DNA from: a virus
IMG/VR virus record: IMGVR_UViG_3300025671_000581
Coordinates: 1 to 22,650 of that record
Direction: 5' to 3' (one strand)
Length of the DNA stretch: 22,650 bases
The position numbers and the translations under genes were made by a program. Shown here piece by piece: positions 2,281 through 19,135 of the stretch (positions are counted from its first letter, which is position 1; each line of letters begins with the position of its first letter). The notes under the pieces were generated by a model. It saw nothing but the letters and a program-made list of their open reading frames with translations. It ran no database searches and was not told where the DNA came from.

Positions 2281-2537
2281 GGATAGTTATGTTTTAAATA
2301 TAATATATTTTATGAAAGTCTAAAAGTTTCCTCGTGTCCTTCTCTAAAATCTTTCTGATTCTTACTTATGAAACTAATATCTAATACATTTCTATTACTT
2401 TGTTCTTTTTCACAAGATCCACTGTCCTAGAGACTTTCAGCTTGATTCTATTACTTCTATTAGTTTATTAGTGAATTCTGTTTATTTTTTTCAAAAAACT
2501 TTTATTTTTTCCACAGAACAATAGCAATAATCTAATA
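2281..2537 (-). repeat. AT-rich leader, left copy of long inverted repeat
   Basis: This stretch matches, in inverted orientation, 18903-19135. The best part is 2474-2510, identical over 37 bases to the reverse complement of 18928-18964. Further shared blocks are CACAGAACAATAGC/ACAGAGAACAATAGC, CTAATATCTAATA and TTTCCTC-TGTCCTTCT. The left copy has about 20 extra bases near 2354-2374. Each copy lies directly upstream of an outward-facing gene (terminase small subunit here). One-mismatch DnaA-box-like 9-mers occur at 2278-2286 and 2507-2515. No gene was seen in 2265-2592. Confidence 0.85.
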
Positions 2538-2551
2538 GTCTAATTAGGGGC

Positions 2552-2574
2552 AAAAAAAGGGGCCTTTCGGCCCC
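2552..2574 (-). terminator. Terminator after gene 2593-2985
   Basis: On the minus strand GGGGCC, loop GAAA, GGCCCC, followed directly by seven T. It lies 19 bases beyond the stop of the upstream gene and shields the terminase small subunit leader from read-through. Confidence 0.9.
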
Positions 2575-2592
2575 TGTCAACGATCCTCGGTC

Positions 2593-2985
2593 CTACTTTA
2601 CTAGCATAAGTTTGCGCAAGTCATCGTCGCTAAAGCTCTCGTCGACCCATCGTCGGACTTCGTAGTTAGTCACTGACCCTCCTTCATAAAGGTCGAACTT
2701 ATAAAATCGTGGCGGTTCGTCCGGGAGGGTGGCTCTAAACAATAAGGTCGAACACGTTATTCCCCCGCTCATATCAAATTGGGTGAACTGTATTTCGTCG
2801 ACGTTTTCGCTTAATTTAAGGGTGTCGCAAAATTCTTCGACATACGGGAATTCGAATCCATTTATCTCGTATATGTGGTCTTCCGGTAATTCAACCACTC
2901 CCCAGCAGTCTGGGTCTGACAAATCCCAGTTAATGTTATTGGTGTAGTGGTTAAGTAGTTCGGTTACTTGTACTCTTCTATTCAT
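2593..2985 (-). CDS. Hypothetical early protein, acidic
   Basis: 130 aa, not recognised. Acidic and aromatic-rich, with DLSDPDCWGVVELPEDH (about residues 21-37), a central beta-rich part (IQFTQFDMSGGITCSTLLF) and a helical C-terminus. No signal peptide or membrane segment. It is a single-gene unit between the promoter at 3044-3072 and the terminator at 2552-2574; its ribosome site is AGAAAGAGAGAAAG in the shared leader sequence. Small acidic proteins expressed early are often host-takeover factors, but nothing here shows this. Confidence 0.8.
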   Translation of the reverse strand: MNRRVQVTELLNHYTNNINWDLSDPDCWGVVELPEDHIYEINGFEFPYVEEFCDTLKLSENVDEIQFTQFDMSGGITCSTLLFRATLPDEPPRFYKFDLYEGGSVTNYEVRRWVDESFSDDDLRKLMLVK

Positions 2986-3018
2986 ATCTTTCTCTCTTTC
3001 TAGTTAATGTTTAAAATC

Positions 3019-3034
3019 GGCGGCGCGGGCCGCC
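3019..3034 (-). promoter_or_regulatory. 5' stem-loop in leader of gene 2593-2985
   Basis: Perfect GGCGGC/GCCGCC stem with loop CCGC (minus strand), beginning about 3 bases after the predicted transcription start and followed by AACTAGAAAGAGAGAAAG and the start codon. No T-run follows, so it is not a terminator; stabilising the 5' end of the mRNA is a plausible role. Confidence 0.5.
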
Positions 3035-3043
3035 ACCTTTTTA

Positions 3044-3072
3044 ACTATAGCGGCGACTAAAGGGAAAGTAAA
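3044..3072 (-). promoter_or_regulatory. Promoter for gene 2593-2985
   Basis: Minus strand TAGTGCTTTACTTTC with -35 TTTACT (3072-3067), 17-bp spacer, -10 TATAGT (3049-3044). The predicted start is near 3037. Confidence 0.75.
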
Positions 3073-3085
3073 GCACTACCCCCAT

Positions 3086-3121
3086 AAAAAAGCCCCCGAC
3101 CCACTGTTAAGGGACAGGGGC
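3086..3121 (-). terminator. Terminator after gene 3201-3722
   Basis: Minus strand GCCCCTGTCCC pairs with GGGTCGGGGGC (one mismatch, one G-U), loop of 8, followed by six T. It separates the upstream operon from the promoter at 3044-3072. The stretch 3122-3200 holds no gene. Confidence 0.85.
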
Positions 3122-3200
3122 CGAGGGCGGGGTTCCGAGTTTAGACAACGCAAAGGTCAAGGAGGGACGTTATCTAATCGCTGCGTCTCGGTCAACAGAA

Positions 3201-3722
3201 CTATACCCTCCATGAAATATTTTCGTCATCGGGATCGTCGATAGTTGTGTCGACGAGGTAAGTATCATAAAACGCTTTGGCTTCGTCTTCAACCTCTTTG
3301 TCCTCTTCCCGCTGCCGTAGAAGTGCGGCAACTTCAGGAATAGTTTTTAGATAGTCTTGTTCATCATTGCGCCACGTATCGGTTTCGTCGAGCCGATTGT
3401 CCACGATCCACGTTACTATATTTTCAACGCGTTGGTCGTGCTTCATCTGTAAAACTCGGGGGATCAAGTTCGCATATCCTTTTGAAGTTTTTAGCTTCGG
3501 GTTAAGCTGCGAGTACGTCCGAGCTAATGAGGCAATCTCAGGCCATTCTTCGAGAAACTTTTCCGTAGACTCGCTGTTATGCGTCATCAAGTAGCCATGC
3601 GCTTGTTCCATAAGTGAGATCACTTTATCTGTCAGATCTTCGGGAATGGCATACTTTGTTTCTTCAACATCGTCGCCTAAATATCGTCGAAACACTTTTG
3701 TCTTAAATTTCCAATCGTTCAT
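3201..3722 (-). CDS. Hypothetical protein, mostly helical
   Basis: 173 aa, not recognised. Predicted largely helical, strongly acidic in its last 40 residues (EEDKEVEDEAKAF...DDPDDEN) and without Cys. The start ATG has a good AAAGGAGAAAG ribosome site and overlaps the TGA of the 56-aa gene upstream, showing translational coupling. It is the third and last gene of the operon from the promoter at 4166-4194 and is followed by a terminator. Confidence 0.8.
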   Translation of the reverse strand: MNDWKFKTKVFRRYLGDDVEETKYAIPEDLTDKVISLMEQAHGYLMTHNSESTEKFLEEWPEIASLARTYSQLNPKLKTSKGYANLIPRVLQMKHDQRVENIVTWIVDNRLDETDTWRNDEQDYLKTIPEVAALLRQREEDKEVEDEAKAFYDTYLVDTTIDDPDDENISWRV

Positions 3723-3889
3723 TCTACTTTCTCCTTTATTATCATAATTTTGCGCAAGTCGTACAAAGCTATCTGAACCTCTAATAACTTTACTGTCGCA
3801 TCGGGTGAGGATAATTCCTCGGGGTTAAATTCTTGCTCGAGTTCATCAAGCAAGGCTTTAATCGCTCTGATCTCAGGGTTAGAGGTCAT
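3719..3889 (-). CDS. Small helical protein (56 aa)
   Basis: 56 aa starting MTSNPEIRAIKALLDELEQE, ending IIKEKVE. It looks like one or two amphipathic helices (coiled-coil-like). It is supported by context: its start overlaps the previous gene by 11 bases with GAGGAA upstream, and its TGA overlaps the next ATG. Function unknown. Confidence 0.7.
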   Translation of the reverse strand: MTSNPEIRAIKALLDELEQEFNPEELSSPDATVKLLEVQIALYDLRKIMIIKEKVE

Positions 3890-4109
3890 ATTGTAGTTCC
3901 TCTAAAGCATTCGGGCCAGCGTTCATTTCGTGAAGCTGTTGTATAATATTGTCGTACTCGAAATCGGTGTACGCTTCGAAATTGATAATATCGTACTCGT
4001 CCCTCGTCCCGCATTCAGGGTCTGCGGGGTAGTAGTTAAATTCGACAACCACGTCACGCACCTCGGTACGGTCGTCTGGGTTACACTCGACTAATAGCGT
4101 TAGTTCCAT
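3879..4109 (-). CDS. Hypothetical protein, acidic (76 aa)
   Basis: 76 aa, not recognised. Beta-rich N-terminal half (MELTLLVECNPDD...VVVEFNYYP), an acidic/aromatic middle (FEAYTDFEYDNI) and a helical C-terminus. First gene of the operon from the promoter at 4166-4194, with the shared AGAAAGAGAGAAAG leader before its ATG. Confidence 0.78.
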   Translation of the reverse strand: MELTLLVECNPDDRTEVRDVVVEFNYYPADPECGTRDEYDIINFEAYTDFEYDNIIQQLHEMNAGPNALEELQYDL

Positions 4110-4139
4110 AGTTCTTTCTCTCTTTCTAGTTAGTTTTTC

Positions 4140-4159
4140 GGCGGCGCGTTACCGCTACC
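4140..4159 (-). promoter_or_regulatory. 5' stem-loop in leader of gene 3879-4109
   Basis: Minus strand GGTAGCGGTAACGCGCCGCC folds into an imperfect stem (six pairs, one of them G-U, around one mismatch) that starts at about +1 and is followed by GAAAAACTAACTAGAAAG. The shape matches the leaders at 3019-3034 and 8069-8090 although the bases differ. Confidence 0.4.
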
Positions 4160-4165
4160 TTTTAT

Positions 4166-4194
4166 ACTATAGCCCCCACTTTTACGAAAGTAAA
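4166..4194 (-). promoter_or_regulatory. Promoter for operon 4109-3201
   Basis: Minus strand TAGTGCTTTACTTTCG with -35 TTTACT (4194-4189), 17-bp spacer, -10 TATAGT (4171-4166). The -35 box lies inside the last codons of the tiny frame at 4182-4244. Confidence 0.75.
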
Positions 4195-4244
4195 GCACTA
4201 GGGGGGAGCCTACGAAGATCGTAGACTTTTTGTAAGTCGGACAT
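4182..4244 (-). CDS. Possible 20-aa leader-like peptide
   Basis: 20 codons, MSDLQKVYDLRRLPPSALLS. It has a strong ribosome site (CAGGAGGACGA) and its ATG overlaps the TAA of the previous gene. It ends inside the -35 region of the next promoter. It could be a real micropeptide, or a device that drives ribosomes, and thus transcription, up to the promoter. Too short to judge by composition. Confidence 0.35.
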   Translation of the reverse strand: MSDLQKVYDLRRLPPSALLS

Positions 4245-4387
4245 TATTCGTCCTCCTGAACATTCTTGAAACAGATGCACAGTTCACTTTCTATACAAAA
4301 GTCATCGAATCCATCCATATATTGAAAGTCCACGTCAGTGTCTTTTATTGCTTTCCAAAGAATCTCGAACAGCTCGTTTTTAGTCAT
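4244..4387 (-). CDS. Small acidic protein (47 aa)
   Basis: 47 aa starting MTKNELFEILWKAIKDTD, ending NVQEDE, with a Cys pair ELCICF. Its ATG overlaps the TGA of the 175-aa gene upstream, with AAGGATAC just before. Function unknown; supported by tight coupling on both sides. Confidence 0.65.
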   Translation of the reverse strand: MTKNELFEILWKAIKDTDVDFQYMDGFDDFCIESELCICFKNVQEDE

Positions 4388-4911
4388 GTATCCTTCTCCT
4401 CGAAGTAAAAATCTATTAATTTAGAGTCGAACCACTCCGGGACATCACGCTCGGTCCACCGCATTTCAAACGCAGTCTCAGCTTTATGTATGTAGTATCG
4501 TCGGTACGCTTCAACACAATCCGAGCCTTTAAATGCATCGGGCATACATTGTGGTGGCGGGGTGATTTTTATATTAGGCATCATCTCGGGGATTTTATCT
4601 AGTGGCTTAAGTAATCGGGCGCTGGCGTGGACTTTTCCATAGCGGTAAGTGTACTCGTTGAGTAGAGCCATGAAATGGTGGTAGGTCCACGAATATTGTT
4701 GAGTAGAGTCGCCTACCCAGATTGTCATCGGGTGGTGTACGTGGGCGTTCTTATAAAGCTTAGTCGAAAGCTCCTCGGGCAAAGGGTCTTCCCACCGCCG
4801 ATATGCCGTACAGAGCATCTGAGCGGTTTCTAGGCACATTTTCACAACGTGCTTATCACATTGCCATTGGGCCGCGTATTCGGGGCAGTCACTTATATAA
4901 AAGATATTCAT
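4384..4911 (-). CDS. Conserved phage protein of the CDKHVVKM type
   Basis: 175 aa from ATG 4911. The start is chosen because AAAGGAG stands 8 bases upstream and the family begins with MNIFY; a longer frame to 5001 would overlap the gene upstream. The N-terminus MNIFYISDCPEYAAQWQCDK, then HVVKMCLETAQML (residues 21-33), a segment HHPMTIWVGDS, EYTYRYGK and a C-terminal PEWF are hallmarks of a family common in cyanophages and other marine phages. To my knowledge its function is not established; conserved Cys, His and Lys residues in CDKHVVKM suggest a catalytic or metal site. It sits in an operon of small genes with ATGA couplings at both ends. Confidence 0.8.
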   Translation of the reverse strand: MNIFYISDCPEYAAQWQCDKHVVKMCLETAQMLCTAYRRWEDPLPEELSTKLYKNAHVHHPMTIWVGDSTQQYSWTYHHFMALLNEYTYRYGKVHASARLLKPLDKIPEMMPNIKITPPPQCMPDAFKGSDCVEAYRRYYIHKAETAFEMRWTERDVPEWFDSKLIDFYFEEKDT

Positions 4912-5027
4912 GCTCGCAGCTCCTTTCGGCCCTGTTCTTTCATAATCCGCTCGAGTCGCTTTACTTTTCGGCGATCGGTAGTGGTCCACCAAGCATTCCA
5001 AGCTTTAATATACTTTGGAGTGTTCAT
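4908..5027 (-). CDS. Small basic protein (39 aa)
   Basis: 39 aa beginning MNTPKYIKAWNAWW and ending GRKELRA; Trp-rich and basic. The start at 5027 has AAGGAACT upstream and overlaps the stop of the previous gene; a longer frame to 5135 lies inside that gene and was not used. It ends KELRA with the same overlap sequence as the gene before it. Function unknown. Confidence 0.65.
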   Translation of the reverse strand: MNTPKYIKAWNAWWTTTDRRKVKRLERIMKEQGRKELRA

Positions 5028-5308
5028 GCTCGTAGTTCCTTCCGCATAATAGACATATCGTCTCGCACCCATGGCTCGCCATTCTTTATCACAGTAACAC
5101 CTTGGTTTTGAGCAACGGCTAAACAATCTCCGCACAGCGTTAAAAAGAATCGTTCATCATCTACGGTCGTTTTTACCCAAACTGTATCGAGGGGAATACT
5201 ACGATGAGTTTTCATTCCGGAAGGGCCAGTCTCTCCGAGCTGTTGACAACTATCGCAATATTCGTAATTACGCTCTTCAATCTCAAACGTCATTTCTTCG
5301 TCGTTCAT
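5024..5308 (-). CDS. Hypothetical protein with two CxxC pairs
   Basis: 94 aa. CDSC (about residues 18-21) and CGDC (about 59-62) form a likely zinc-binding knuckle around a short beta region. Otherwise not recognised. The start overlaps the previous stop by 4 bases, with GGGGGAGGAG as ribosome site. The C-terminus MRKELRA is repeated in the next gene, because the stretch that encodes it also carries the next ribosome site. A small zinc-ribbon adaptor or nucleic-acid-binding protein is possible. Confidence 0.75.
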   Translation of the reverse strand: MNDEEMTFEIEERNYEYCDSCQQLGETGPSGMKTHRSIPLDTVWVKTTVDDERFFLTLCGDCLAVAQNQGVTVIKNGEPWVRDDMSIMRKELRA

Positions 5309-5493
5309 TTGTCTCCTCCTTCGTCCAACTCGTGCATCTCTTCTATCATGATGCGGTTGATTAACTCATCCGCGATTTCGTTTAACCACTTTAATTTGGT
5401 GCGGCGACTGGGGTTTTCTGCTTCGTACTCCCAAATACCGTAAAAATCTTTTTCGTCTCCATCTTCAACAGAAACCTCTAGTTTGAATATCAT
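5305..5493 (-). CDS. Small acidic protein (62 aa)
   Basis: 62 aa, beginning MIFKLEVSVEDGDEKDFYG, then a basic patch (SRRTKLKWL) and an acidic helix (IADELINRIMIEEMHELDE). Four-base overlaps with both neighbours (ATGA). Not recognised. Confidence 0.75.
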   Translation of the reverse strand: MIFKLEVSVEDGDEKDFYGIWEYEAENPSRRTKLKWLNEIADELINRIMIEEMHELDEGGDK

Positions 5494-5780
5494 TTACCTA
5501 TTTCCTCTAAGTTTTCTCGAGATATCACTTGGTATGCCCCCTTATTGTAGGGTATCGACACAGTGTATTGAGAACTAATTTCCTGTCGGTAAGACTGGTC
5601 AGGCTTGGGGGCAGTACTCGCTGGAGTAGAGGCGACTGAGGGGTAGTCGTTCGGTCGGTAAGCTGTTGGCTTAGGTAAGCTGGTAAGCTCTTCGAACTTC
5701 GGAACACGCTTAGTTGTGCGTGGTAATTTCTTACGTTTCTTGCCGCTATAGTCGTGGCGTATCGAACCGTGTACGATCAT
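5490..5780 (-). CDS. Basic, Pro/Ser-rich protein, probably disordered
   Basis: 96 aa. The N-terminal third is basic (DYSGKKRKKLPRTTKR), the middle is rich in Pro, Ala and Ser (about residues 36-63) and a short C-terminal part (YTVSIPYNKGAYQVISREN) looks ordered. No enzyme motif. It is the first gene of the seven-gene operon that runs to 4182, behind the promoter at 5816-5844, with AGAAAGGAGAAAG as ribosome site. Confidence 0.75.
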   Translation of the reverse strand: MIVHGSIRHDYSGKKRKKLPRTTKRVPKFEELTSLPKPTAYRPNDYPSVASTPASTAPKPDQSYRQEISSQYTVSIPYNKGAYQVISRENLEEIGK

Positions 5781-5815
5781 ATCTTTCTCCTTTCTCGTTA
5801 GCGCGTACTATATAT

Positions 5816-5844
5816 AGGTTACGCCCCAGTACCGCGAAAGTAAA
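5816..5844 (-). promoter_or_regulatory. Promoter for operon 5780-4182 (atypical -10)
   Basis: Minus strand TACTGCTTTACTTTCGC with -35 TTTACT (5844-5839). At 17 bp stands only TAACCT (5821-5816); a better TATATA lies 22 bp away. The -35 box sits in the loop of an inverted repeat (5825-5855), unlike the other copies, so this one may be regulated differently. Confidence 0.55.
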
Positions 5845-5855
5845 GCAGTACTGGG
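5825..5855. promoter_or_regulatory. Inverted repeat around a -35 box (possible operator)
   Basis: Arms CCCAGTAC (5825-5832) and GTACTGGG (5848-5855), perfect over 8 bases with a 15-base loop holding the -35 box. It could be an operator for a dimeric repressor or activator. Confidence 0.5.
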
Positions 5856-5865
5856 ACAGCTACCA

Positions 5866-6198
5866 TTATTTTTGACTAATACGGAAAATCCAAACACCGG
5901 GAGGTTCGTTCCACGGCTCCATACCGCGTTCTCTTCGCAGTACAAAAGACCTTTCAAGTTTTTTGCCTACGGTTTTCATTAAAACTCTAACTCGTTCCGT
6001 GTATTTACTTTCCATTTCTTTTTTCTCAAAAGACGGATTTTTCACACGACCAGATAATTCTCTAAATTCATCAAGATTTATAAAAACTGAATCACCTACG
6101 TCTAACGCTCTAATAACGTCGAGAATTGGTTGATATTTTGAGCTACCTTTGTAATTCCTGCCAATCCACGGCTCTTGCTTAACAATTTCTAAATTCAT
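5866..6198 (-). CDS. Hypothetical protein (110 aa), basic
   Basis: 110 aa, not recognised by name. MNLEIVKQEPWIGRNYKG is followed by a helical segment (ILDVIRALDVGDSVFI), a basic middle (residues 50-90, many Lys and Arg) and a C-terminal PPGVWIFRIS strand. The shape suggests a small DNA-binding fold. It lies downstream of the terminator at 6211-6232, so it would be transcribed by read-through from the promoter at 6701-6729. Ribosome site GGAGAAAGAA. Confidence 0.75.
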   Translation of the reverse strand: MNLEIVKQEPWIGRNYKGSSKYQPILDVIRALDVGDSVFINLDEFRELSGRVKNPSFEKKEMESKYTERVRVLMKTVGKKLERSFVLRRERGMEPWNEPPGVWIFRISQK

Positions 6199-6210
6199 TT
6201 CTTTCTCCGA

Positions 6211-6232
6211 AACAAAGGGGGCTTGCGCCCCC
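6211..6232 (-). terminator. Internal terminator/attenuator after gene 6239-6640
   Basis: Minus strand GGGGGC, loop GCAA, GCCCCC, followed by TTTGTTT. It stands between two genes of the same strand, and no separate promoter is visible for the second, so it may partly terminate and set a ratio between the two. Confidence 0.85.
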
Positions 6233-6238
6233 GTCGAT

Positions 6239-6640
6239 TTAAATTAGCTTGATATATCCCTCTTCTACCAAGCGGCCTTTGTAATACGCCACGATGCGGC
6301 GCATCTGTTTTTCAGGATTCTTAGTATTTGGCATTGCGAGGTGGCCCTCTTTTACTGCCAGTCGTACTAACTCAAGAAGCTCAAAGTTTTTAGAATCAAA
6401 ACTCGTGTCTTCTATATCCTGCATGGCTGTGATCATAGCAACAAACTGTGGAGTTTTTTGCTTAGTCTCACTGGCCAGTTTACCCGTGTACTCAAAGCGT
6501 TGCGCTCGGCTACTGCTTTTCTTGACAGGGGCGGGTATCGAAAGTTTTGCAACAGGAGCTGGGTTAGCTTTTGCTACAGTCTTTCGAGCGGTCGGCTTTT
6601 TCGTAGCAGCCGTAACTACTTTCTTTTTGGCTATCGCCAT
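6239..6640 (-). CDS. Protein with Lys/Ala/Pro-rich basic tail, unknown function
   Basis: 133 aa. Residues 1-45 are Lys, Ala, Pro and Thr-rich (AKKKVVTAATKKPTARKTV), like the tails of histone-H1-like or nucleoid proteins. Residues 50-133 form a helical domain ending QMRRIVAYYKGRLVEEGYI, which resembles a winged-helix end. By composition it may bind DNA. It is the first gene after the promoter at 6701-6729 and is followed by a terminator. The layout is like that of the plus-strand protein at 1013-1363. Confidence 0.8.
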   Translation of the reverse strand: MAIAKKKVVTAATKKPTARKTVAKANPAPVAKLSIPAPVKKSSSRAQRFEYTGKLASETKQKTPQFVAMITAMQDIEDTSFDSKNFELLELVRLAVKEGHLAMPNTKNPEKQMRRIVAYYKGRLVEEGYIKLI

Positions 6641-6700
6641 AGTACTTTCTCCTTACTGAGGTTCTACTTTCTAAGTTGTTTTTACTAACCAACAAAAACT

Positions 6701-6729
6701 ACTTTACTACACACTAAACGGAAAGTAAA
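6701..6729 (-). promoter_or_regulatory. Promoter for genes 6640-5866
   Basis: Minus strand TTAATGCTTTACTTTCCG with -35 TTTACT (6729-6724), 17-bp spacer, -10 TAAAGT (6706-6701). Confidence 0.72.
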
Positions 6730-6746
6730 GCATTAACTTCTCATAG

Positions 6747-7016
6747 CTACCCATTAGATTGTTCTGCCTCCTTCAGCCGTTGTCTAATTGGCGCGGCCCA
6801 CTGAGAAATAATTTCATCACTAGTTTCTGAGCCTCCGATACTATCAAGAACTGTGCTAGAAAAGCCACAGTCTTGATCGTACATTTTAAGCGCAATCATT
6901 TCTGATAAACGCTCTGAGCTTAAACTACCCTCCTTATCACGAAGGGTAGCCCAAAGTTCACTGGCAAAATCTCCATCAATTACAAGACAATTATGTAATC
7001 TTCTCACTTCACCCAT
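6747..7016 (-). CDS. Hypothetical protein (89 aa)
   Basis: 89 aa, not recognised; mixed N-terminus (MGEVRRLHNCLVIDGDF) and helical, acidic remainder. Starts 2 bases after the stop of the DUF932-like gene and is co-transcribed with it. No terminator is seen after it. A partner role for the DUF932-like protein is possible from position only. Confidence 0.75.
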   Translation of the reverse strand: MGEVRRLHNCLVIDGDFASELWATLRDKEGSLSSERLSEMIALKMYDQDCGFSSTVLDSIGGSETSDEIISQWAAPIRQRLKEAEQSNG

Positions 7017-7018
7017 GG

Positions 7019-8044
7019 TTACGCAGCCTCCGCATATTCAAGCGCCATTCGATAAGCCTTTTCCTTACGCTTAGAACCATCGCCGATTAACGAGTTGTAC
7101 ACCTTATTCTCGCCACCGCGCATATGATCTTCAACATAGGTTACTGCGTTTAGCGCACCCCACCAAGTTCCTGCTGAAGATTTTAGCAAGGCTCCGGGAG
7201 CACGTTCTAAGGCTTCGACAACGTTGCGCGTCGTGCGGTTAAATTCGTCGATTAAAGGCCCTTCTTCACCAACCTTGCGGCCCTCGGCCCTAAGCTCATC
7301 GTTTTTAACACGCTGGGCGATAACGTCTGGTTGGTAGATACGGCCAATAAACTCAAGCACGTTCGAATGTTGCGCTTTCTTCTTAGCGAGGAACTCGGCA
7401 GACTCTTTAAACAGCTTGCTGGTATCGTTAGCTAATCCGAGGGTCTCAGCAGCTTGTTGCGCCATGTCTGCATTAAACTCTCTAATGTGCGACATACTGA
7501 ACTGTGCTTGGCCGTTAGAAAAGGCTAGTTGAAGGGTGTTGTTACAAACAACTCTTATTTGCGTGTAGCGGGCGGTTAACGCATGCCCCGCTTCATGAGG
7601 CTGATGTAACAATAAATAGCCGCCAATCTGATCTTCTCCGGGAAGTTCAAACGTATCGGCTAGTTTCGCAAGTGCCCAGATACTTTTACCGCCGCGTAAA
7701 CTACCAGCAGTTTCCATTGTCATCTGTGCTGCGGTAGTGAAGTCAGAAAAGAACTGGAAGATCTTCTCATTTTGTACGGGTAAGTATTTAGGGCCGCAAT
7801 GGGACAATATTGAGTTGTCCGTATCGCGCACAATAAAGAAGCTACTAGGCGTTTGCATAAGCTCCATACCGTCTTCGCCATACTCGGGGGTGGTTATCGT
7901 GTAACCGGGACGTTTACTAACCGTCCAATCAAGTTGTGCTGCAATCATCATTTCTTGTGGAGTGAGGTTGGGGTCCACTTTAACACCTTCGCGATGCCAA
8001 GGAACCTCTCCGGTCCACGCCATACTTTCTACTGCTGCAACCAT
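7019..8044 (-). CDS. DUF932 / phage-plasmid-like protein (TIGR03299 type)
   Basis: 341 aa. The N-terminus MVAAVESMAWTGEVPWHREG, the segments FFIVRDTDNSIL and PVQNEKIFQFF, the middle TARYTQIRVVCNNTL (about residues 155-170) and the C-terminal GTWWGALNAVTYVEDH are the signature of the DUF932/TIGR03299 family, common in phages and plasmids. Full length for the family. The molecular function is not established; such genes usually sit in early or replication regions, as here. First gene behind the promoter at 8099-8127, with AGAAAGGAGAACG as ribosome site. Confidence 0.88.
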   Translation of the reverse strand: MVAAVESMAWTGEVPWHREGVKVDPNLTPQEMMIAAQLDWTVSKRPGYTITTPEYGEDGMELMQTPSSFFIVRDTDNSILSHCGPKYLPVQNEKIFQFFSDFTTAAQMTMETAGSLRGGKSIWALAKLADTFELPGEDQIGGYLLLHQPHEAGHALTARYTQIRVVCNNTLQLAFSNGQAQFSMSHIREFNADMAQQAAETLGLANDTSKLFKESAEFLAKKKAQHSNVLEFIGRIYQPDVIAQRVKNDELRAEGRKVGEEGPLIDEFNRTTRNVVEALERAPGALLKSSAGTWWGALNAVTYVEDHMRGGENKVYNSLIGDGSKRKEKAYRMALEYAEAA

Positions 8045-8068
8045 TTCGTTCTCCTTTCTAGGTTTTTT

Positions 8069-8090
8069 GGTAAACGCGGTGTGCGCTACC
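8069..8090 (-). promoter_or_regulatory. 5' stem-loop in leader of DUF932-like gene
   Basis: Minus strand GGTA-GCG pairs with CGC-(bulge GTT)-TACC around a CACAC loop, starting about 2 bases after the predicted transcript start, followed by AAAAAACCTAGAAAGGAG. Confidence 0.45.
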
Positions 8091-8098
8091 TATTACCT

Positions 8099-8127
8099 AC
8101 TTTAGCGGGCACTAAAGCGAAAGTAAA
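8099..8127 (-). promoter_or_regulatory. Promoter for genes 8044-6747
   Basis: Minus strand TACTGCTTTACTTTCGC with -35 TTTACT (8127-8122), 17-bp spacer, -10 TAAAGT (8104-8099). Its -35 box is inside the last codons of the nuclease gene at 8112-8528. Confidence 0.75.
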
Positions 8128-8528
8128 GCAGTACTAACAGCGCCCGAGTAAAAGCCCATAGCCGCGAGAATCCCTTGCCAATTAAAAGGTGCGTCTGTCG
8201 AAAACTCGGGTTCGCTCTTCCATGTGAATGTATCGAAGTACTCCACATCGGCAGGAATCTTATATACCTTAATCGTTTTATCTTTCTTAGCGAGAACGTA
8301 ACACTCACCGCCATGCAGAACTCGATTGTAGAGCCATGACTTCTGCATAGGACGTAGACCGATTTGATTACCACGGACTACTTTCAGCTCAACCCAGATT
8401 TCTCGACCACGATAACAGCCATTAACATCAGGAATACCGGAAGCAGTTCCACCAGACTCGATCCGTTGCCAATGGATGTTGGTAGAGTTATCCCGCAGTT
8501 GCTTCCAAAGTAGGCTTTCTTTTGGCAT
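8112..8528 (-). CDS. PD-(D/E)XK nuclease, VRR-NUC / resolvase-like
   Basis: 138 aa. SGGTASGIPDVNG (Asp34) and IWVELKV (Glu47, Lys49) form the PD...ExK metal-binding site of the restriction-endonuclease fold; the spacing and the following RPMQKSWL and GGECYVL segments are as in VRR-NUC-type phage nucleases and Holliday-junction resolvases. Likely role: cutting branched DNA during recombination or before packaging. It overlaps the helix-turn-helix gene upstream by 41 bases, with AGGAAG before its ATG, and is the last gene of the long operon from 14021. Its final codons (ALLSL) contain the -35 box of the next promoter. Confidence 0.8.
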   Translation of the reverse strand: MPKESLLWKQLRDNSTNIHWQRIESGGTASGIPDVNGCYRGREIWVELKVVRGNQIGLRPMQKSWLYNRVLHGGECYVLAKKDKTIKVYKIPADVEYFDTFTWKSEPEFSTDAPFNWQGILAAMGFYSGAVSTALLSL

Positions 8529-8883
8529 AGTTTCTTCCTAAGAGTAGAGTGAACTTATGGTTGTTTTTAGCAATTTTGATGTCGAAGTTCTGCTCAAGGT
8601 GCGACCTGAACAACTCTTTGCGAATAGCTAGAGACATAGAGTCGTTTTCTGTGCGATCTTCGCCAATCGTGTCCCAAAGTTCTTTCGCTTTTTGTCCTCC
8701 CGAGTAGTAGTCTCCCTCACCTACCTTGCATCGAATCACAATCTGTGAAACCCTTTGGCGAGTGATCCCGTACTTTTCACCAAGATCTTGTAGAGTGATA
8801 TCTGAAGATAAATACTCATTGTAAATTTTTAAGTAGAGTTCCTGTTGCTCTAGTTTTCGTAAAACCTCTATTCCTGATGTCAT
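8488..8883 (-). CDS. Helix-turn-helix protein, sigma-region-4-like
   Basis: 131 aa. Residues 30-49 (TLQDLGEKYGITRQRVSQIV) read as a helix-turn-helix of the sigma-70 region 4 type. The rest (80 residues, basic C-terminus) is not recognised. It starts by a 4-base overlap with the polymerase stop and overlaps the nuclease gene. It could be a transcription factor acting on the phage promoters, whose extended -35 boxes would suit a region-4-like contact, but that is inference. Confidence 0.72.
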   Translation of the reverse strand: MTSGIEVLRKLEQQELYLKIYNEYLSSDITLQDLGEKYGITRQRVSQIVIRCKVGEGDYYSGGQKAKELWDTIGEDRTENDSMSLAIRKELFRSHLEQNFDIKIAKNNHKFTLLLGRNYAKRKPTLEATAG

Positions 8884-13156: not shown

Positions 13157-13160
13157 AAGA

Positions 13161-14021
13161 CTACTCCGGTTTTCGTAAAATCCATGCACAGTTGTTAGAG
13201 GCTTGGGGGAAGAAAACTGCGGCGACCATTCTTAAAAACTGTCGGCCATATCGATTACTAAGCATCTCGAATTGTTTCGGACTCCAACTAGGGAAACCGA
13301 AGTCGTTGATCTCATGATTACGCATCGCTTTCCGTAACTTAGGAAGCTGTATAAATGTTCCGACAACCGACTGAAGTTCCCAGCGTTTCTCCAACTCAGT
13401 TTTAAGCTCCTCAAACCCCCACTCGTAAACATGATCCTCGGGTAACTTATCGTTCGACCCGTCATGGTTAGGTGTTGTGAAATAGAGTAAACCTCCGGGC
13501 TTAGTCACTCGATCTACCTCGTCAAGCCAAGCGGGTACAAACTCAGGTTTCATATGCTCGATAACTTCGGTAGACCAACAAAAGTGTTTCGAGGCATCGG
13601 GTACGTCTAAAATCGGATTTACCGTTAGATCTTGAACGGTAATCGTTGCGTTAAAATTCTTTAGCCATTGCGAGTCGTTTATATCACCGCCGCCGTTCGA
13701 CCACCAAGGTATTTCTCGCAATACCGCTGGATCAATATCAAATCCATGGTAGCTAGAAATTACGTCTGATTTTTTAACAGTGTAGGCTTTATACAAATTT
13801 CGTAGAACCCACAGCTCACCGCAGCCTATTTCTAAAACATCTAGTGGTTGGGCTAACTCAATAGATTCTTCAATACATAATGAAGAGATCTTATCGAACC
13901 GACTAATATGCGTTAGCTCGTCCGGTCGCCAGTTAGCTAAAACCCCAGCCCCTGCAATATCCATCCGAGTGTTCTTACTATCGTTCTCGTTTATTGTCAG
14001 ATTCTTCCTAATAGAAGCCAT
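13161..14021 (-). CDS. Class I SAM-dependent methyltransferase
   Basis: 286 aa. Motif I VLEIGCGEL (residues 62-70), motif II acidic FDID (94-97), a middle WSTEVIEHM and RVTKPGGLLYFTTPNHDG, as in Methyltransf_11/23-type small-molecule methyltransferases. There is no DNA-methyltransferase signature (no DPPY or NPPF, no PC motif), so methylation of a small molecule, a protein or a hypermodified base is more likely than N6-A or C5-C methylation. It is the first gene of the operon behind the promoter at 14050-14079 (AAAGGAGAAAGAG before ATG), directly before the aGPT-Pplase-like gene, so it may act in the thymine modification pathway. Confidence 0.85.
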   Translation of the reverse strand: MASIRKNLTINENDSKNTRMDIAGAGVLANWRPDELTHISRFDKISSLCIEESIELAQPLDVLEIGCGELWVLRNLYKAYTVKKSDVISSYHGFDIDPAVLREIPWWSNGGGDINDSQWLKNFNATITVQDLTVNPILDVPDASKHFCWSTEVIEHMKPEFVPAWLDEVDRVTKPGGLLYFTTPNHDGSNDKLPEDHVYEWGFEELKTELEKRWELQSVVGTFIQLPKLRKAMRNHEINDFGFPSWSPKQFEMLSNRYGRQFLRMVAAVFFPQASNNCAWILRKPE

Positions 14022-14049
14022 CTCTTTCTCCTTTATTAAACTAATAAAA

Positions 14050-14079
14050 ATTATACTTTAGGCCCTTTACCAAAGTAAA
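14050..14079 (-). promoter_or_regulatory. Promoter for modification/polymerase operon 14021-8112
   Basis: Minus strand CTCCTTTACTTTGG with -35 TTTACT (14079-14074), 18-bp spacer and consensus -10 TATAAT (14055-14050). The box departs from the family in having TCC for TGC and G after TTT. A TTATTA/TAATAA hairpin (14033-14047) lies at the predicted start. Confidence 0.7.
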
Positions 14080-14084
14080 GGAGT

Positions 14085-15581
14085 TTATATTGGGAAGTAC
14101 TTGGTCGAGCGAGGCTCGATAAGATACAAATTTTCTTTAGCGCGAGTTAACCCAACATAAAATACCCGCGATTCATCGTCTGGATTTTTCTGGTAAGAGT
14201 TATAGACTCTTGTCGAAAGATCTGTCATTAAAATTACATTTGTCGCTTCACCACCTTTAGCAGCATGGATCGTCGATAAACGAATACGAGGTTCTTTTGT
14301 GATCTTTTCTCCGCGTCGAAGCATTGCCTGAATGTAGCTACGCTCACGAACAGACATTCCGTTAAAAACATCGTACCAATGTTCCGCAGGAATACTTGGT
14401 ATATGGTTTTTCGTATCTTTTAGCGTGATAAAGCTATCAAAGTCTAAACTGGACAGGGAGTTGGGTACACGAATATTCATGTAAGCTAAGAGATTGATAA
14501 GCTCCGTGACAAGAATACGTCCCCCGCTTCTTATCGTTTCCCAATCTTTAACAGACTTAACTTTTTTCTCAGAGATACTGGCTCGATTTTTATTTTTAAA
14601 GAACCAACCTTCTGATCGACAGTAGTTTTCGACACCTTCTAAAAGGTAATTTGTCCTAGCTAAAACTAACCAGTCACCTTCCGACATGTCGATAGATTCA
14701 TAAGACGCTTCCCATCGAACTTGACCAGCTTCCTTTCGAGGTTCCCATTTCTTTCGAACTCGAGAGGCAACTTGCCCGATACACCGCTCGGCAAGGTTGT
14801 GTATAGATTTAGGAATCCGATACGATTGTTTAAGAACCATCGCATTTTTTGAATTACTAATTAAATATTCAACGTCTGCCCCAGCCCAACGATAAATCGC
14901 TTGGTCATCATCTCCAGCGATATAGATTTTATCAGCGTGGTCGCAAAGTTTACGAACCACCGCCCACTGTAACGGAGATAAATCTTGAGCTTCGTCAACA
15001 AACATTACGTCGAGCTTAGGAGCATGTCCTCGTTTTAAAAACATCTCTAGCATGTCTGTGTAATCGAGCAGCACTCGGTCACGTTTAAATAAATTTAATC
15101 CTCGAGAAAATCTCTCTAGCTCGAACCAACCTACAACATCGTCGACTTCCTGCCATTGCTGTGCTAGTGAAACTTGTCGCATGCGAGCAAGGTTTTCTAT
15201 AAACAGTAAACGATCATCTTTAGATACACTCAAGATATTCCCGTCTTCGGTATTTACCGAACCAGTTAACCTTAAATTAAGTTTGTCGTTTAAGTCTCGA
15301 AAGTCTTGTGCTCCAAGTACCGATTCTTTCGATAATCCTAACTGTAAGAAACAAAGTGAATGCAGCGTTCTAAAATACGGCAGCTGTTTTTGACTAATTT
15401 CAAATCGCTCTAATGCCCGAGTTTTTCCTTCCTTTACGGCTTGTTTTGTGAATGTAAAAAACCCTATGCGTTCAGGTTGAGTACCCTTCTCGAGTTCTTC
15501 TTCGAGCAACCCTAAAAGGGTACTAGTTTTACCTGTGCCCGGAGGTCCCAGTATAACTTGTGCCCTAGCCGTTAAGGTCAT
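14085..15581 (-). CDS. UvrD/PcrA-like SF1 helicase
   Basis: 498 aa. Walker A GPPGTGKT (residues 12-19), motif Ia FTFTKQAVKEG (42-52), Walker B FVDEAQD (194-200), motif III GDDDQAIYRWAG (223-234), motif IV LKQSYRIP, motif V STIHAAKG and motif VI YVGLTRAKENLYLI (475-488). It is shorter than UvrD (about 720 aa), with reduced 1B/2B subdomains, as in phage versions. A 3'-5' helicase role in replication or recombination follows from the family. Its ATG overlaps the primase stop by 4 bases, so the two are made together. It ends just before the promoter at 14050-14079, and no terminator is seen. Confidence 0.93.
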   Translation of the reverse strand: MTLTARAQVILGPPGTGKTSTLLGLLEEELEKGTQPERIGFFTFTKQAVKEGKTRALERFEISQKQLPYFRTLHSLCFLQLGLSKESVLGAQDFRDLNDKLNLRLTGSVNTEDGNILSVSKDDRLLFIENLARMRQVSLAQQWQEVDDVVGWFELERFSRGLNLFKRDRVLLDYTDMLEMFLKRGHAPKLDVMFVDEAQDLSPLQWAVVRKLCDHADKIYIAGDDDQAIYRWAGADVEYLISNSKNAMVLKQSYRIPKSIHNLAERCIGQVASRVRKKWEPRKEAGQVRWEASYESIDMSEGDWLVLARTNYLLEGVENYCRSEGWFFKNKNRASISEKKVKSVKDWETIRSGGRILVTELINLLAYMNIRVPNSLSSLDFDSFITLKDTKNHIPSIPAEHWYDVFNGMSVRERSYIQAMLRRGEKITKEPRIRLSTIHAAKGGEATNVILMTDLSTRVYNSYQKNPDDESRVFYVGLTRAKENLYLIEPRSTKYFPI

Positions 15582-17101
15582 AGTGGACTCTCGTTAAACT
15601 CAGGAAGCTCATGGCTTTCGTTTTGCACCTGAAACTCAGGAATGTGCCAAACATTCACACCTTTGCCTTTTATATTAAAAAAGTAAGCCTCTCCTTTCAT
15701 ATCTCGTAATCGAGCAGTTAGTTTGCTTCGATGGTAATCTCTAAAGTTTTTACGATGTAAAAAATCCATAAGATCCGCTAACCGAAAATATGTCCTGCCC
15801 TTATCGCTCCAAGGTTTGCCAAGTAGTAACTCATCTTTTTCTCTAGCGGGCCGCTCAGTACAAAACGTTTCTAACAGCTCACTAAAATGTCCTTCTGTCG
15901 AAGAATCTTTCGGCACCTCTATAACAGTTAACTTATCCAGTAGTTGTTGGATAACTTGTCGCCATACGTTATCCCGTACTTTCGGGGGAATAGTATTTAG
16001 CATATCCATACATTTACGCTGAAACTTAGTTTGATTCAAAAGTTCTTCGGTCTCTAACTCAAGGCGACCACCTTCTACGTCAAGAAACCATATTGGTGGA
16101 TCGCTATTCTGTTTAGTTAAGTTACTAAACAAAGGAGTACCGCCTGAAGCTCCAACACCAAACTTTCTAGTTCTGCAAAGAGGACTATTACAATGGCTTG
16201 CGATTGGCTGGTCGTTACAGCGATAAAAATAATCTTTTCGCTGCACCTGTTTTGTAATCGTAAGTACTTCCTGCGCTCCTAACGGAGGCTGCATATACTC
16301 ATGGTTTACTTGCTCGATACGTTTTTCCCAATCATCCGCATACTTTTTGCGTAAGAAAACCCCTAGATTAAATAAACCTGAGTTTCTCATTCCTTTCGGA
16401 AAACCCTGAGCGATCAAATGATCTAAACAAGGCGGGGCGTGTTCTAACCAGTCGATATTTTTAACCGCTGGAGCCGTATCCAGTTGTGTTAACTCTTCTT
16501 CAGTTAACGTAATCGTATCGAGATATTCTAAAAATTCCTCCGGGGTAAAGGTCCTCCCTGATGGACTAAACCCATACCTTGTTGAATCTTCACCTCCGAA
16601 GTATGGCATGTTTAACGTGCTTCCACGATCTCCTCTTTCTAACAATAGTTTAGTTTGTTTCGGAAAAATCTCAGCTGTTCCGAATCCGATTGACGCGGCT
16701 ACCTGACGCAGCTTTTTCTGCATAAGATATGCAGGAACTGGGTCAAAGACAAACAAAAATAAATGTGCTCCACCACTTTTAGATCGACAGACAACTAAAG
16801 GCAACTTAAACTTTTTTAGCTTTTTAGCTAAACCCTTGAGATCGAGGGGGTACTCATCAATATCGATGGCCCCCCAAACACAGGAATTGTTTTCATCAAT
16901 AGCAACAATACCTATACTCTGTTTACCGTCAAGATGTTGACGCCACAAATCTTTTAACTGTTCTTTCGTAAGAGTCTTAGATATTGTGACGTTTGTTCCT
17001 TTAGCTTTCCCGTCTTCTCTTGTCTCACTCGATGGTGTGAATACACTATATGCGTGTCGTAGGCCAGCGAACTTTTGTGCAAATTGTTCTTCTAGCGACA
17101 T
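15578..17101 (-). CDS. Archaeo-eukaryotic primase (AEP / TOTE-type primase domain)
   Basis: 507 aa. Catalytic region about residues 60-190: AIDIDEYP with Asp80 and Asp82, CRSKSGGAHLFLF (105-117; the sGGaH motif with His113), and AEIFPKQ (143-149). This matches primase-polymerases of the type found in TOTE conflict systems and many phages. Four cysteines, Cys225, Cys295, Cys304 and Cys309, lie in PPCLDHL, YRCNDQP and HCNSPLCR; their spacing recalls the Fe-S or zinc module of PriL/PriCT domains. The C-terminal 180 residues are not recognised; a winged-helix-like segment with FRLADLMDFLHRKNF is near 450. There is no helicase domain in the same chain. Likely makes primers for PolA. Ribosome site AAGGTGAG. 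Confidence 0.87.
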   Translation of the reverse strand: MSLEEQFAQKFAGLRHAYSVFTPSSETREDGKAKGTNVTISKTLTKEQLKDLWRQHLDGKQSIGIVAIDENNSCVWGAIDIDEYPLDLKGLAKKLKKFKLPLVVCRSKSGGAHLFLFVFDPVPAYLMQKKLRQVAASIGFGTAEIFPKQTKLLLERGDRGSTLNMPYFGGEDSTRYGFSPSGRTFTPEEFLEYLDTITLTEEELTQLDTAPAVKNIDWLEHAPPCLDHLIAQGFPKGMRNSGLFNLGVFLRKKYADDWEKRIEQVNHEYMQPPLGAQEVLTITKQVQRKDYFYRCNDQPIASHCNSPLCRTRKFGVGASGGTPLFSNLTKQNSDPPIWFLDVEGGRLELETEELLNQTKFQRKCMDMLNTIPPKVRDNVWRQVIQQLLDKLTVIEVPKDSSTEGHFSELLETFCTERPAREKDELLLGKPWSDKGRTYFRLADLMDFLHRKNFRDYHRSKLTARLRDMKGEAYFFNIKGKGVNVWHIPEFQVQNESHELPEFNESPL

Positions 17102-17115
17102 TTCTCACCTTTCTA

Positions 17116-17889
17116 TTAAAACGGGATATCTTCTCCAGACTCTTCGTCCACCGCAGCTTCTTGTTTGACTGTTACAGCACCGGAACGAGCAGCTGTCATA
17201 AAGTCTCGCGCCATTCTAGCTAACTCAAGAGGCGTAGCTTTCTCTTTCTCTGCGGTAAATCCATACCAACTCCCTAGGTCGTTAGATTGCTCTACCGTTT
17301 TTACACGGTAAATATTAGCGAACATAGGTGCTAGAACAGTTTCACCTGCTGAGTTTTTTACTCTCGAAGTTCGAAGCATAGAGTTCCAACGTCGAGAAAA
17401 ACTTAGCTGGCTAGAGGTGAAACTTAATAAGACTTCTTGTGGTTCTAGCTCATTATTAACAATCAGTGCAAAGTACTGAGCCGTTTCTTGTATTTCATTA
17501 CCATTATTTAAAATGTACTTTTTCTTCTCGTTTTGAACCGCACTTTTTAAGATATCAGCTGTGTGATCAGAGTTTACAATACCGCCTCCTGCGTCTCGCG
17601 GAACCCATTCGATATACTTTTTAGTGTAAGCACAAGGAATAACAAGAATACCCTCATCGCCGTCATACAACTCATTCGTGACGGTATTAAAAAGCATCCC
17701 TTGAGCAGCTCCCTCAATATATTTACCGTTATTTTTCTTTAACTGGGGGGAACCAGATTGCAACACACGGATAAACGGAATCGCATAATCCTCGGAACTA
17801 GTATCCTCCAAACCTGTTCCGCTAGACAATAAGTCGTCGTCTAAAACTAAAACTTCACCAACGTTCGCTTTCGCTACTTCTTTTGACAT
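17116..17889 (-). CDS. SSB-like protein with acidic DIPF tail
   Basis: 257 aa. The core (YAIPFIRVLQSGSPQLKK, later VLLSFTSSQLSFSRRWNSML) belongs to a phage family common next to primases and helicases, usually unnamed. The last residues DEESGEDIPF copy the acidic tail of bacterial SSB (consensus ...DDDIPF), which recruits partner proteins. By this tail, its length and position in the replication operon it is probably a single-stranded-DNA-binding protein; no clear OB-fold motif was seen, so this is inference. Its start follows the coiled-coil gene by 3 bases, with AGAGGAAG as ribosome site. Confidence 0.78.
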   Translation of the reverse strand: MSKEVAKANVGEVLVLDDDLLSSGTGLEDTSSEDYAIPFIRVLQSGSPQLKKNNGKYIEGAAQGMLFNTVTNELYDGDEGILVIPCAYTKKYIEWVPRDAGGGIVNSDHTADILKSAVQNEKKKYILNNGNEIQETAQYFALIVNNELEPQEVLLSFTSSQLSFSRRWNSMLRTSRVKNSAGETVLAPMFANIYRVKTVEQSNDLGSWYGFTAEKEKATPLELARMARDFMTAARSGAVTVKQEAAVDEESGEDIPF

Positions 17890-17892
17890 GAT

Positions 17893-18480
17893 TTACTTCC
17901 TCTTCTTTTCTATTTTTGAGCGGGAACCTACATATATCCCGAATGTTTCGGAAGGTATATCCTTCCCTGCAGTAAGTTGTTCCTTCACAAACGCTTTAAG
18001 CGTTGAAGGATGTACTCCCTGTTTTACCTCTGGACTTAGACCAAGCTGCTTTAACTTTTCTACAGTGTCGTTAGCTTTTTGATCCTCATCCCTACCGAAG
18101 CTAAGGTTTACTTGGTTTTTAATTAAACCACCATGACCGTTGTTTTTTAACCAAGAAAATGCTTCTTCTCTATTTGCTTCGGAAATAGACGCTTGAAAGA
18201 AAGGACTAACAGATATTTTGTAACCTGTCGCAGTTACAAATTCCATTAAGTTAGCGGATTGCATAGCTTCTGGTAATTTAACCTCTGCCACATGTCTTAG
18301 TTCTTTCTTCTTTTCTTTTAGCTGTTCTTCTAAGGCTTCAAGTTCGTTTTGTAGCTGAACTTGCTCTTGTGCGATATCCGAAATAGAAGATATTTCTTTA
18401 TCGTTTAAAGTTTCTTGCCATTCAGAAACAGTGGTAGATCCAGTCAACTCTTCAAAAGAGAGTTCTTTATCTTCAGACAT
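17893..18480 (-). CDS. Coiled-coil replication-module protein, unknown function
   Basis: 195 aa. Residues 38-66 form a charged coiled coil (QEQVQLQNELEALEEQLKEK), then a domain with KLPEAMQSANLMEF, SPFFQASISEANREEAFSWL and a C-terminal VHPSTLKAFVKEQL...IPSETFGIYVG. This arrangement recurs in many phages beside the SSB-like gene; its function is not known to me. The VHPSTLKAFV part is the most conserved. An assistant to SSB or a recombination mediator is a guess. It overlaps the 116-aa gene by 8 bases. Confidence 0.8.
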   Translation of the reverse strand: MSEDKELSFEELTGSTTVSEWQETLNDKEISSISDIAQEQVQLQNELEALEEQLKEKKKELRHVAEVKLPEAMQSANLMEFVTATGYKISVSPFFQASISEANREEAFSWLKNNGHGGLIKNQVNLSFGRDEDQKANDTVEKLKQLGLSPEVKQGVHPSTLKAFVKEQLTAGKDIPSETFGIYVGSRSKIEKKRK

Positions 18481-18823
18481 TAAGTTCTCCTAAGTCTTCC
18501 GGTTCAAATGCAGTTTTAGAATAAAGCTCTAAAGAAACCGCGTAATAGTCTCTCGACTGGCGATCCCATTTAAGGACTTTAAACCTTCCTGAGTTTACTG
18601 CGGCGGCTACTGCACAGCAGAGGCCGATGGATGCGGGGTCGCCCATTAACAACAAGTAATCCTCGTCGCTAAAATTAGACAACACCCGTTTGACGGTTCT
18701 CACCGCCGGGGCTGTTGTAAGCATTAGGTTGGTTTTGCTCGGAAGCACAACCTCTAATGTCCCATATTTAGAAGCTGTTAGAACGTTACGGCCCTCAACT
18801 TCCTGTACCACATAGACAGTCAT
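18473..18823 (-). CDS. Conserved marine-phage-type protein (DYLLLMGDP motif)
   Basis: 116 aa. VYVVQEVEGRNVLTASKYG at the N-terminus, DEDYLLLMGDPASIGLCCA near residues 53-71 and FKVLKWDRQSRDYYAV toward the end are recognisable as a family seen in the replication region of many phages, without known function. First gene of the replication operon behind the promoter at 18850-18878, with AAAGGAGAAAGAT as ribosome site. It sits head to head with the SNF2 gene. Confidence 0.8.
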   Translation of the reverse strand: MTVYVVQEVEGRNVLTASKYGTLEVVLPSKTNLMLTTAPAVRTVKRVLSNFSDEDYLLLMGDPASIGLCCAVAAAVNSGRFKVLKWDRQSRDYYAVSLELYSKTAFEPEDLGELNV

Positions 18824-18849
18824 ATCTTTCTCCTTTATAAGGGTTTATT

Positions 18850-18878
18850 ACTTTAGTAAACCTTCTTTGCAAAGTAAA
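18850..18878 (-). promoter_or_regulatory. Promoter for replication operon 18823-14085
   Basis: Minus strand AGTACTTTACTTTGC with -35 TTTACT (18878-18873), 17-bp spacer, -10 TAAAGT (18855-18850). It lies between the replication operon and the duplicated AT-rich leader. Confidence 0.72.
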
Positions 18879-18902
18879 GTACTTTTTACTGCCGAACGCT
18901 AT

Positions 18903-19135
18903 TAAAGTTATCGCTATTGTTCTCTGTAAAAAATAAAAGTTTTTTGAAAAAAATAAACAGAATTTACTAATAGAGTAATATTTCTAATAGATTATACACT
19001 AACTCCTCTAAATAGAAAGGAAAATTCTTTGTAACAAAAGTAATAGAAAAATATTAGATATTAGATTTTTAAGAAGGACAGGAGGAAAGTTCTTTAAAAT
19101 CATATAAAATATTATTATTAGATATTAAACTATAC
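18903..19135 (+). repeat. AT-rich leader, right copy of long inverted repeat
   Basis: Inverted copy of 2281-2537 (37 of 37 identical in 18928-18964, imperfect elsewhere). It lies directly upstream of the SNF2 helicase gene, as the left copy lies upstream of the terminase small subunit gene. Repeated TAATAG and TATTAGAT elements are seen (for example 18968-18990 and 19050-19066). An AGGAGGAA at 19080-19087 looks like a ribosome site but no start codon follows it. No gene was seen in 18824-19158. Confidence 0.85.

Follow-up and report, generated by a model that had tools for sequence, protein, structure and literature searches.

The window analysed here is the entire IMG/VR virus record IMGVR_UViG_3300025671_000581 (22,650 bases). 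It carries two inverted copies of a DNA element, termed the cassette, one immediately upstream of the terminase small subunit gene terS and one immediately upstream of a gene for an SNF2-type helicase. The cassette is a real, conserved and paired element of a phage clade: It combines spaced TAATAG-like repeats with an AT-rich stretch and a promoter-like 3' part, and it occurs at the same two genes in the relatives. On balance, its sequence favours a duplicated, activator-dependent promoter region that acts at the DNA level before two outward units, that of terS on the left and the SNF2 gene on the right.

Two inverted cassettes and their anatomy

Each copy is read toward its own outward downstream gene. 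Copy A (2281-2537, minus strand) ends just before the leftward terS (1728-2264, minus; phrog_51, E 5.6e-21), and copy B (18903-19135, plus strand) just before the rightward SNF2 gene (19159-20601, plus; phrog_62 DNA helicase, E 1.4e-115). An earlier note on this DNA had described a long imperfect inverted repeat at these two places, its copies facing outward into different genes and sharing 37 identical bases (2474-2510 and 18928-18964). All of this was borne out: The coordinates are correct, the 37 bases are the longest common substring, and the repeat reaches well past this core. A repeat search of the window yielded four inverted pairs, namely 84 nt at 88% (2447-2530 and 18908-18991), 42 nt at 83% (2360-2401 and 19037-19078) and two of 28-32 nt. 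Self-blastn found one alignment of 180 columns (75.6%) as the sole inverted pair at E<=1e-3. Local alignment of both upstream regions scored 700 compared to 320 +/- 23 (maximum 405) in 500 dinucleotide shuffles. The earlier note had considered that only the 37-bp core might align above chance. This is refuted, because the outer parts without the 84-nt core still score 318, above every shuffle (184 +/- 16, maximum 260). With leader models that include the window among their sequences, nhmmer matched copy A at 2573-2273 (terS-leader model) and copy B at 18808-19155 and 18903-19089. A second record (G028), 99.7% identical to the window over 20 kb, has both copies in the same arrangement.

The cassette is 230-300 bases long. 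Toward the gene, it begins with an AT-rich stretch and array 1; a variable spacer leads to array 2, present in many copies, which is followed by a box, in most relatives a TATAnT hexamer, and the gene start. Among the 150-bp stretches of the window, the most AT-rich one covers the AT-rich 37-base segment of copy B (18928-18964, plus), and the one ranking second overlaps the identical segment of copy A (2474-2510, minus). Array 1 comprises three TAATAG-like units in 8/9-bp spacing, located by a geometry scan at 2447-2471 (minus) in copy A and 18967-18991 (plus) in copy B. Array 2 (TAATAG, TATTAG, TATTAG by motif positions) follows at 2374-2397 (minus) and 19041-19064 (plus). The GAGGnCAyGAG-type box reads AGGACACGAG in copy A (2331-2340, minus; motif scan) and AGGACAGGAG in copy B (19075-19084, plus), where it was read from the sequence; a stricter box pattern misses it. 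Eight of the 16 TAATAG sites of the window start inside the two copies.

Conservation and matched geometry among relatives

Relatives were taken from IMG/VR as the best 80 of 264 for SNF2 and the best 80 of 100 for terS. Two loci per set with fewer than 200 bases upstream were dropped, leaving 78 SNF2 and 78 terS loci. The 21 terS and 39 SNF2 leaders that remained after dereplication served to build a nucleotide profile. At a threshold of at least 25 bits, the cassette was found upstream of 78/78 SNF2 and 78/78 terS genes, counts that in part test fit rather than discovery, because some of these loci supplied the model. No second place in these loci reached 20 bits. A profile-independent search led to the same genes: All 49 exact matches to the 25-base array in IMG/VR are located 182-221 bases upstream of terS (39) or SNF2 (10). 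Each of the 11 long relatives (52-82 kb) has, like the window, two cassettes, one per gene. Among eight further contigs, six carry two and two carry one; of the latter, G008 breaks off at the partner gene and G032 does not contain it. Two cassettes are thus present in 18 of 20 contigs, at a distance of 16.2-23.7 kb. The order and orientation of terS, the tested early genes between the cassettes and SNF2 are identical in 12/12 contigs. Loss of one copy with unchanged neighbouring genes, which the earlier note had named as an argument against its proposal, was seen in no close relative whose contig holds both genes. As to the records themselves, G016 has exact end repeats of 127 bases, and G035 and G023 also have end repeats. 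The 81.9-kb record G003 (L174-L178) contains fragmented direct repeats, for the most part with 65-90% identity, that extend over about 16 kb; it may be a fusion of two related phages.

A third copy was sought and rejected. The promoter-like 3' part and the repeat array are common to both copies, and elsewhere in the scanned contigs matches do not exceed 14.3 bits (E down to 0.0035). The exceptions are two partial matches (21 and 25 bits) close to copy B, found in G035 and G023; none of these matches was counted as a copy. Some of the weak extra matches are suspected to reflect the early-promoter part of the SNF2 model. In host genomes, the single exact match to a 24-base array pattern, in Candidatus Gullanella endobia (genome_contigs), was attributed to chance.

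Four distant named phages, the HTVC023P-type pelagiphages HTVC023P and HTVC027P as well as 023Pt_psg01 and DSL-LC04, resemble the window in having related polymerase, helicase, primase and SNF2 genes, with SNF2 beside the replication genes. Unlike the window, they contain no cassette match above 9 bits (56,441 of 61,547 bases of DSL-LC04 scanned). Their SNF2 proteins are 45-57% identical to that of the window, and all SNF2 relatives among named phages are below 60%. A search with the DNA of copy A gave two matches in named phages (E 0.3, 7-9% query coverage), which were regarded as chance. Self-blastn of the named phages found no inverted pair at E<=1e-3, a weak negative because the same test overlooks the pairs that G035 and G023 are known to have; among the 14 G016 matches listed, the pair is also unseen. 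Judged from the seawater source of the HTVC relatives and 023Pt_psg01, the cassette phages are probably marine.

The geometry of array 1 is matched between the two copies. In 17 contigs, the array spans 17 bp in both copies, with the middle unit at +8 (12 contigs) or +9 (5 contigs), and the spacing is equal at both copies in 17/17, 8/9 in 12 and 9/8 in 5. Triples as good as these occur in 154 of 157 real leaders vs one of 157 shuffled ones. With the window counted in, the spacing is 8/9 in 75 of 78 terS leaders, the remainder being L087 (9/8), L089 (9/9) and L095 (doubtful fit), and the 79 SNF2 leaders divide into 31 with 8/9 and 48 with 9/8. This agreement within each of the 17 contigs suggests a single protein that recognizes both copies, although it could also have arisen by gene conversion or shared descent. 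Copy-to-copy similarity is higher within a genome than across genomes (467 vs 399; 12 contigs, permutation p 5e-5), a comparison in which clade is a confounder. When scores were corrected for background in 14 contigs, own pairs scored hardly higher than other pairs within clades (8.0 vs 7.2 and 5.8 vs 5.6), and the two directions of comparison across clades differed, with a low value of 1.8 and a high one of 6.3. Therefore, the clade match that is seen in the geometry is not shown by sequence similarity.

Promoter region, replication origin and weaker alternatives

The two cassettes bracket a module of minus-strand genes (2593-18823) whose profile matches comprise DNA polymerase, primase, a UvrD-type helicase as well as nucleotide and DNA-modification genes. 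The module is presumed to be early from this gene content and from TTTACTTTC motifs. Exact copies of TTTACTTTC precede small early genes at 3064, 4186, 5836, 6721 and 8119 on the minus strand; with up to one mismatch, the window contains 25 matches where 11.9 would be expected (at most 22 in a shuffle). According to the earlier note, neither cassette holds this promoter motif. This is correct for exact TTTACTTTC and not for its variants: The one-mismatch form TTTCCTTTC is located inside copy B (19015-19023, minus). Another one, TTTACTTTG, lies just outside copy B and faces the early genes (18870-18878, minus; motif scan). An intrinsic-terminator-like site (2558-2575, minus; one found by terminator scan, 0.3 expected) follows the early operon just upstream of copy A and stands between this operon and terS.

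The 3' part of the cassette has the layout of an activator-dependent sigma-70 promoter. In the dereplicated leaders, the box is present in 21/21 terS and 26/39 SNF2 sequences (largest of 200 shuffles: 2 and 2), and TATAnT in 19/21 and 36/39 (largest of 200 shuffles: 9 and 23). Where both motifs occur, they are separated by 49-51 bp in 16 of 19 terS leaders and by 49-52 bp in 22 of 25 SNF2 leaders. A TTGAC-type -35 was detected in only one of 21 terS leaders and none of 39 SNF2 leaders. This means, a -10 at a fixed distance from an upstream box and no -35, as expected for activator dependence, were found in those 16 and 22 leaders. Three loose TAATAG-like units are present in 19/21 terS and 39/39 SNF2 leaders, and terS-leader conservation peaks at array 1. 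The identity of such a promoter pair, its timing and its binding proteins we infer as follows: An early-made phage protein would bind the TAATAG-like repeats, those of array 1 in their fixed frame of 17 bp and, in copies that have it, those of array 2. A second factor may occupy the GAGGnCAyGAG box about 50 bp before the TATAnT -10-like hexamer, which lacks a sigma-70 -35. The bound proteins would recruit RNA polymerase, presumably that of the host, and thereby the terS unit and SNF2 would be switched on together after the early TTTACTTTC phase. The duplicated regulatory leader for a second expression class proposed in the earlier note is supported at the level of sequence by the promoter-like 3' part, the repeat array and the location of both at terS and SNF2.

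A candidate for the cassette-binding protein is a small helix-turn-helix protein resembling sigma region 4 (8488-8883, minus; Sigma70_r4 just below cut-off, E 5e-5). Its profile match to RpoD in the PDB (E 0.0009) indicates a weak resemblance to this region. When 33 ORFs of the window were compared with 23 contigs or phages (tblastn, E<=1e-3), relatives of this protein were found in 19/19 cassette-bearing contigs and 0/4 named phages, and it might bind the cassette. The gene at 6239-6640 has relatives in 18/19 cassette-bearing contigs and that at 10729-11154 in 19/19, both in 0/4 without a cassette, and three DNA-modification genes show nearly the same pattern. Since these genes share the pattern, co-occurrence alone singles out no binder. 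A helical model was predicted for a 131-aa candidate binder, for which no PDB match was found at E<=0.001; a 133-aa candidate is likewise without a match at this threshold. As an observation in its own right, 11045-14021 is likely a thymine-hypermodification cluster composed of a protein with a 5-hmdU DNA kinase domain, a thymidylate-synthase homologue and a methyltransferase. It has relatives in 19/19 cassette-bearing contigs and 0/4 named phages.

A general class of late promoters was rejected: A model of the 3' part alone, from the box to the -10, matched no place but the cassettes at E<0.5 when 24 sequences were scanned; it is not fully sensitive and shows 31 of 38 known copies. The seven missed copies include copy B of the window and one (G031) that is incomplete in the fetched sequence. 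In 6/12 contigs, the box motif by itself is also present elsewhere, at one or two places.

Several observations weigh against an activator-dependent promoter pair. The array-2 pattern is found in 14/21 terS and only 9/39 SNF2 leaders, 13/39 SNF2 leaders are without the box pattern, and exact TATAAT occurs in 27/39 SNF2 leaders and in 0/21 terS leaders. For the present record, the box is present in both copies and the -10 at the family distance is poor in both; a sigma-70 scan of the window found nothing above chance. Conservation of the terS leaders extends about 250 bp upstream, and most activated promoters need less upstream sequence than this. In the SNF2 leaders, it peaks not at array 1 but at the neighbouring early-promoter stretch. 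The terS leaders L087 (9041-9065) and L089, close to the window, break the 8/9 rule; spacing can therefore change inside the window's own group. The compared sequences are related and not independent. In particular, G003/G004 (by score) and G001/G002 (near-equal matches) are near-identical pairs and G028 is a near-twin of the window, so that there are fewer independent cases of matched geometry and the switch in spacing may be a single event. Finally, copy-to-copy sequence similarity does not track clade cleanly.

The strongest rival, possible though less probable than a promoter pair, regards the cassettes as paired replication origins. The TAATAG-like repeats would be iterons for a phage initiator and the AT-rich stretch an unwinding element, and replication would start at the two inverted copies that flank the early block, as in the Bacillus phage SPP1 with its two origins of direct repeats and an AT-rich part. 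Such a function may coexist with that of a promoter. Iteron origins are recognizable by an AT-rich stretch adjoining a spaced direct-repeat array, and this was found at both copies. When stretches of 150 bases are ranked by AT content, that of copy B comes first in 11/12 contigs and second in the remaining one, and copy A is among the top eight in 8/12. The presence of two cassettes per genome and a conservation that extends upstream of the promoter-like part also agree with origins. On the other hand, the promoter-like part is directed at the downstream gene in most copies, candidates for an initiator emerge from co-occurrence only with none identified, and host DnaA boxes are not above chance. 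In 12 contigs, GC skew reveals no replichore switch and changes its sign at copy B only over the oppositely oriented SNF2 gene; it is uninformative on origins because it follows the gene strand. The array resembles the trio region of Bacillus subtilis. An origin of the BUS layout, DnaA boxes next to DnaA-trios (described in the available parts of PMC8287927), used by host DnaA was rejected: With at most one mismatch, DnaA boxes occur in 4/21 terS leaders (2.0 expected) and 0/39 SNF2 leaders (4.0 expected). The longest gene-strand trio runs are 4-9 in terS leaders (mean of shuffles 2.8) but 2-5 in SNF2 leaders (mean of shuffles 2.5), and the run is apparently not kept in the latter. Somewhat less probable still is that the cassettes are both origins and promoters, where a single phage protein on the TAATAG arrays would open the AT-rich stretch, so that replication starts at the two borders of the early block, and would activate late genes from the same sites.

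Three further explanations have very little probability. A packaging (pac) site bound by TerS would agree with the copy upstream of terS in all 78 terS loci, but the SNF2 copy is kept equally (78/78), and two inverted sites 16-24 kb apart would be expected to launch packaging in opposite directions. Even less credible are recombination sites that invert the 16-kb early segment, as the earlier note had suggested. In favour of it, the copies of the window are inverted and share 37 identical bases. Their similarity of 673, above that of the SNF2 copy to any of 11 other SNF2 copies (at most 533), hints at local homogenisation; the terS copy of the window is closer still to the terS copy of G035 (749). 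Against inversion, order and orientation are constant in the 12 contigs and also in G028, and the longest identical run between copies is only 11-24 bp in 11 other contigs. Therefore, long identity is not maintained, and the suggestion is not supported. Equally improbable is a structured RNA leader, attenuator or riboswitch-like element: The cassette occupies the 5' region of both genes, but a consensus fold of 18 terS leaders is without pairs, and a comparison of the window with Rfam gave no match at the gathering score of a family. With no common RNA structure in these leaders, the signal resides probably in DNA, and the cassette probably acts at this level.

Relation to known phages and significance

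The cassette shares features with known origins and control regions. Origins of the lambda type have iterons beside an AT-rich part as well; unlike the cassette, they are single, lie inside the initiator gene and use longer iterons. For SPP1, the available parts of one paper describe oriL and oriR about 13 kb apart, each with direct repeats beside an AT-rich part and two per genome as in the cassette phages (PMC6316719). There, origin function and the initiator gp38 have been reported, whereas both would be putative for the cassettes. The cassettes also differ from the SPP1 origins as described in that source in their inverted arrangement, and each copy adjoins the start of a gene and has a promoter-like 3' part. 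In T4, oriF and oriG use R-loops from MotA-dependent middle promoters, and the helicase UvsW is made from its own late promoter (PMC3016281); an iteron array is not described in the available parts of this source. The likeness to T4 would lie in origins tied to phage-controlled promoters and in a helicase gene with a late promoter. By analogy only, an SNF2 gene under a cassette switch recalls UvsW.

A transcriptome of HTVC027P, which unlike the window's clade is without a cassette, has been published, and the class of its helicase gene is not given in the available parts (PMC12753301). Within the parts available, the literature on HTVC023P-type and related phages (including PMC12753301 and PMC9599517) yielded no account of an expression switch or replication start. 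Searches for phage TAATAG repeats, phage DnaA-trios, two-origin iteron phages and SNF2 or late direct repeats did not find the element described. Paired phage control regions are a known kind of arrangement; inverted, outward-facing ones that combine a promoter-like part with an iteron array at terS and SNF2 were not found described in the literature searched.

The window has further features. A 13-bp tandem array (GATAGAGTAGAGT) is located at 1521-1598 near the terS end of the record, and a repetitive CCACCGCCGCC-type stretch at 21615-21910 within a minus-strand gene. The tRNA-Met called by ARAGORN at 15574-15664 (plus) over the primase and helicase genes of the other strand is probably false. 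Three adjacent early genes (17116-18823) match the Pfam families that are named after gp32, gp33 and gp34 of phage Pam3, in numerical order.

HTVC027P is without an RNA polymerase of its own according to the available parts of PMC12753301. If this holds for the cassette phages, too, another polymerase must be steered off the early genes. With its matched geometry, a 250-bp element that each genome keeps twice provides a handle on this expression switch and possibly on the start of replication. Should the cassettes be origins and promoters at the same time, expression of the packaging and structural genes and of SNF2 would be coupled to replication via one duplicated DNA element.

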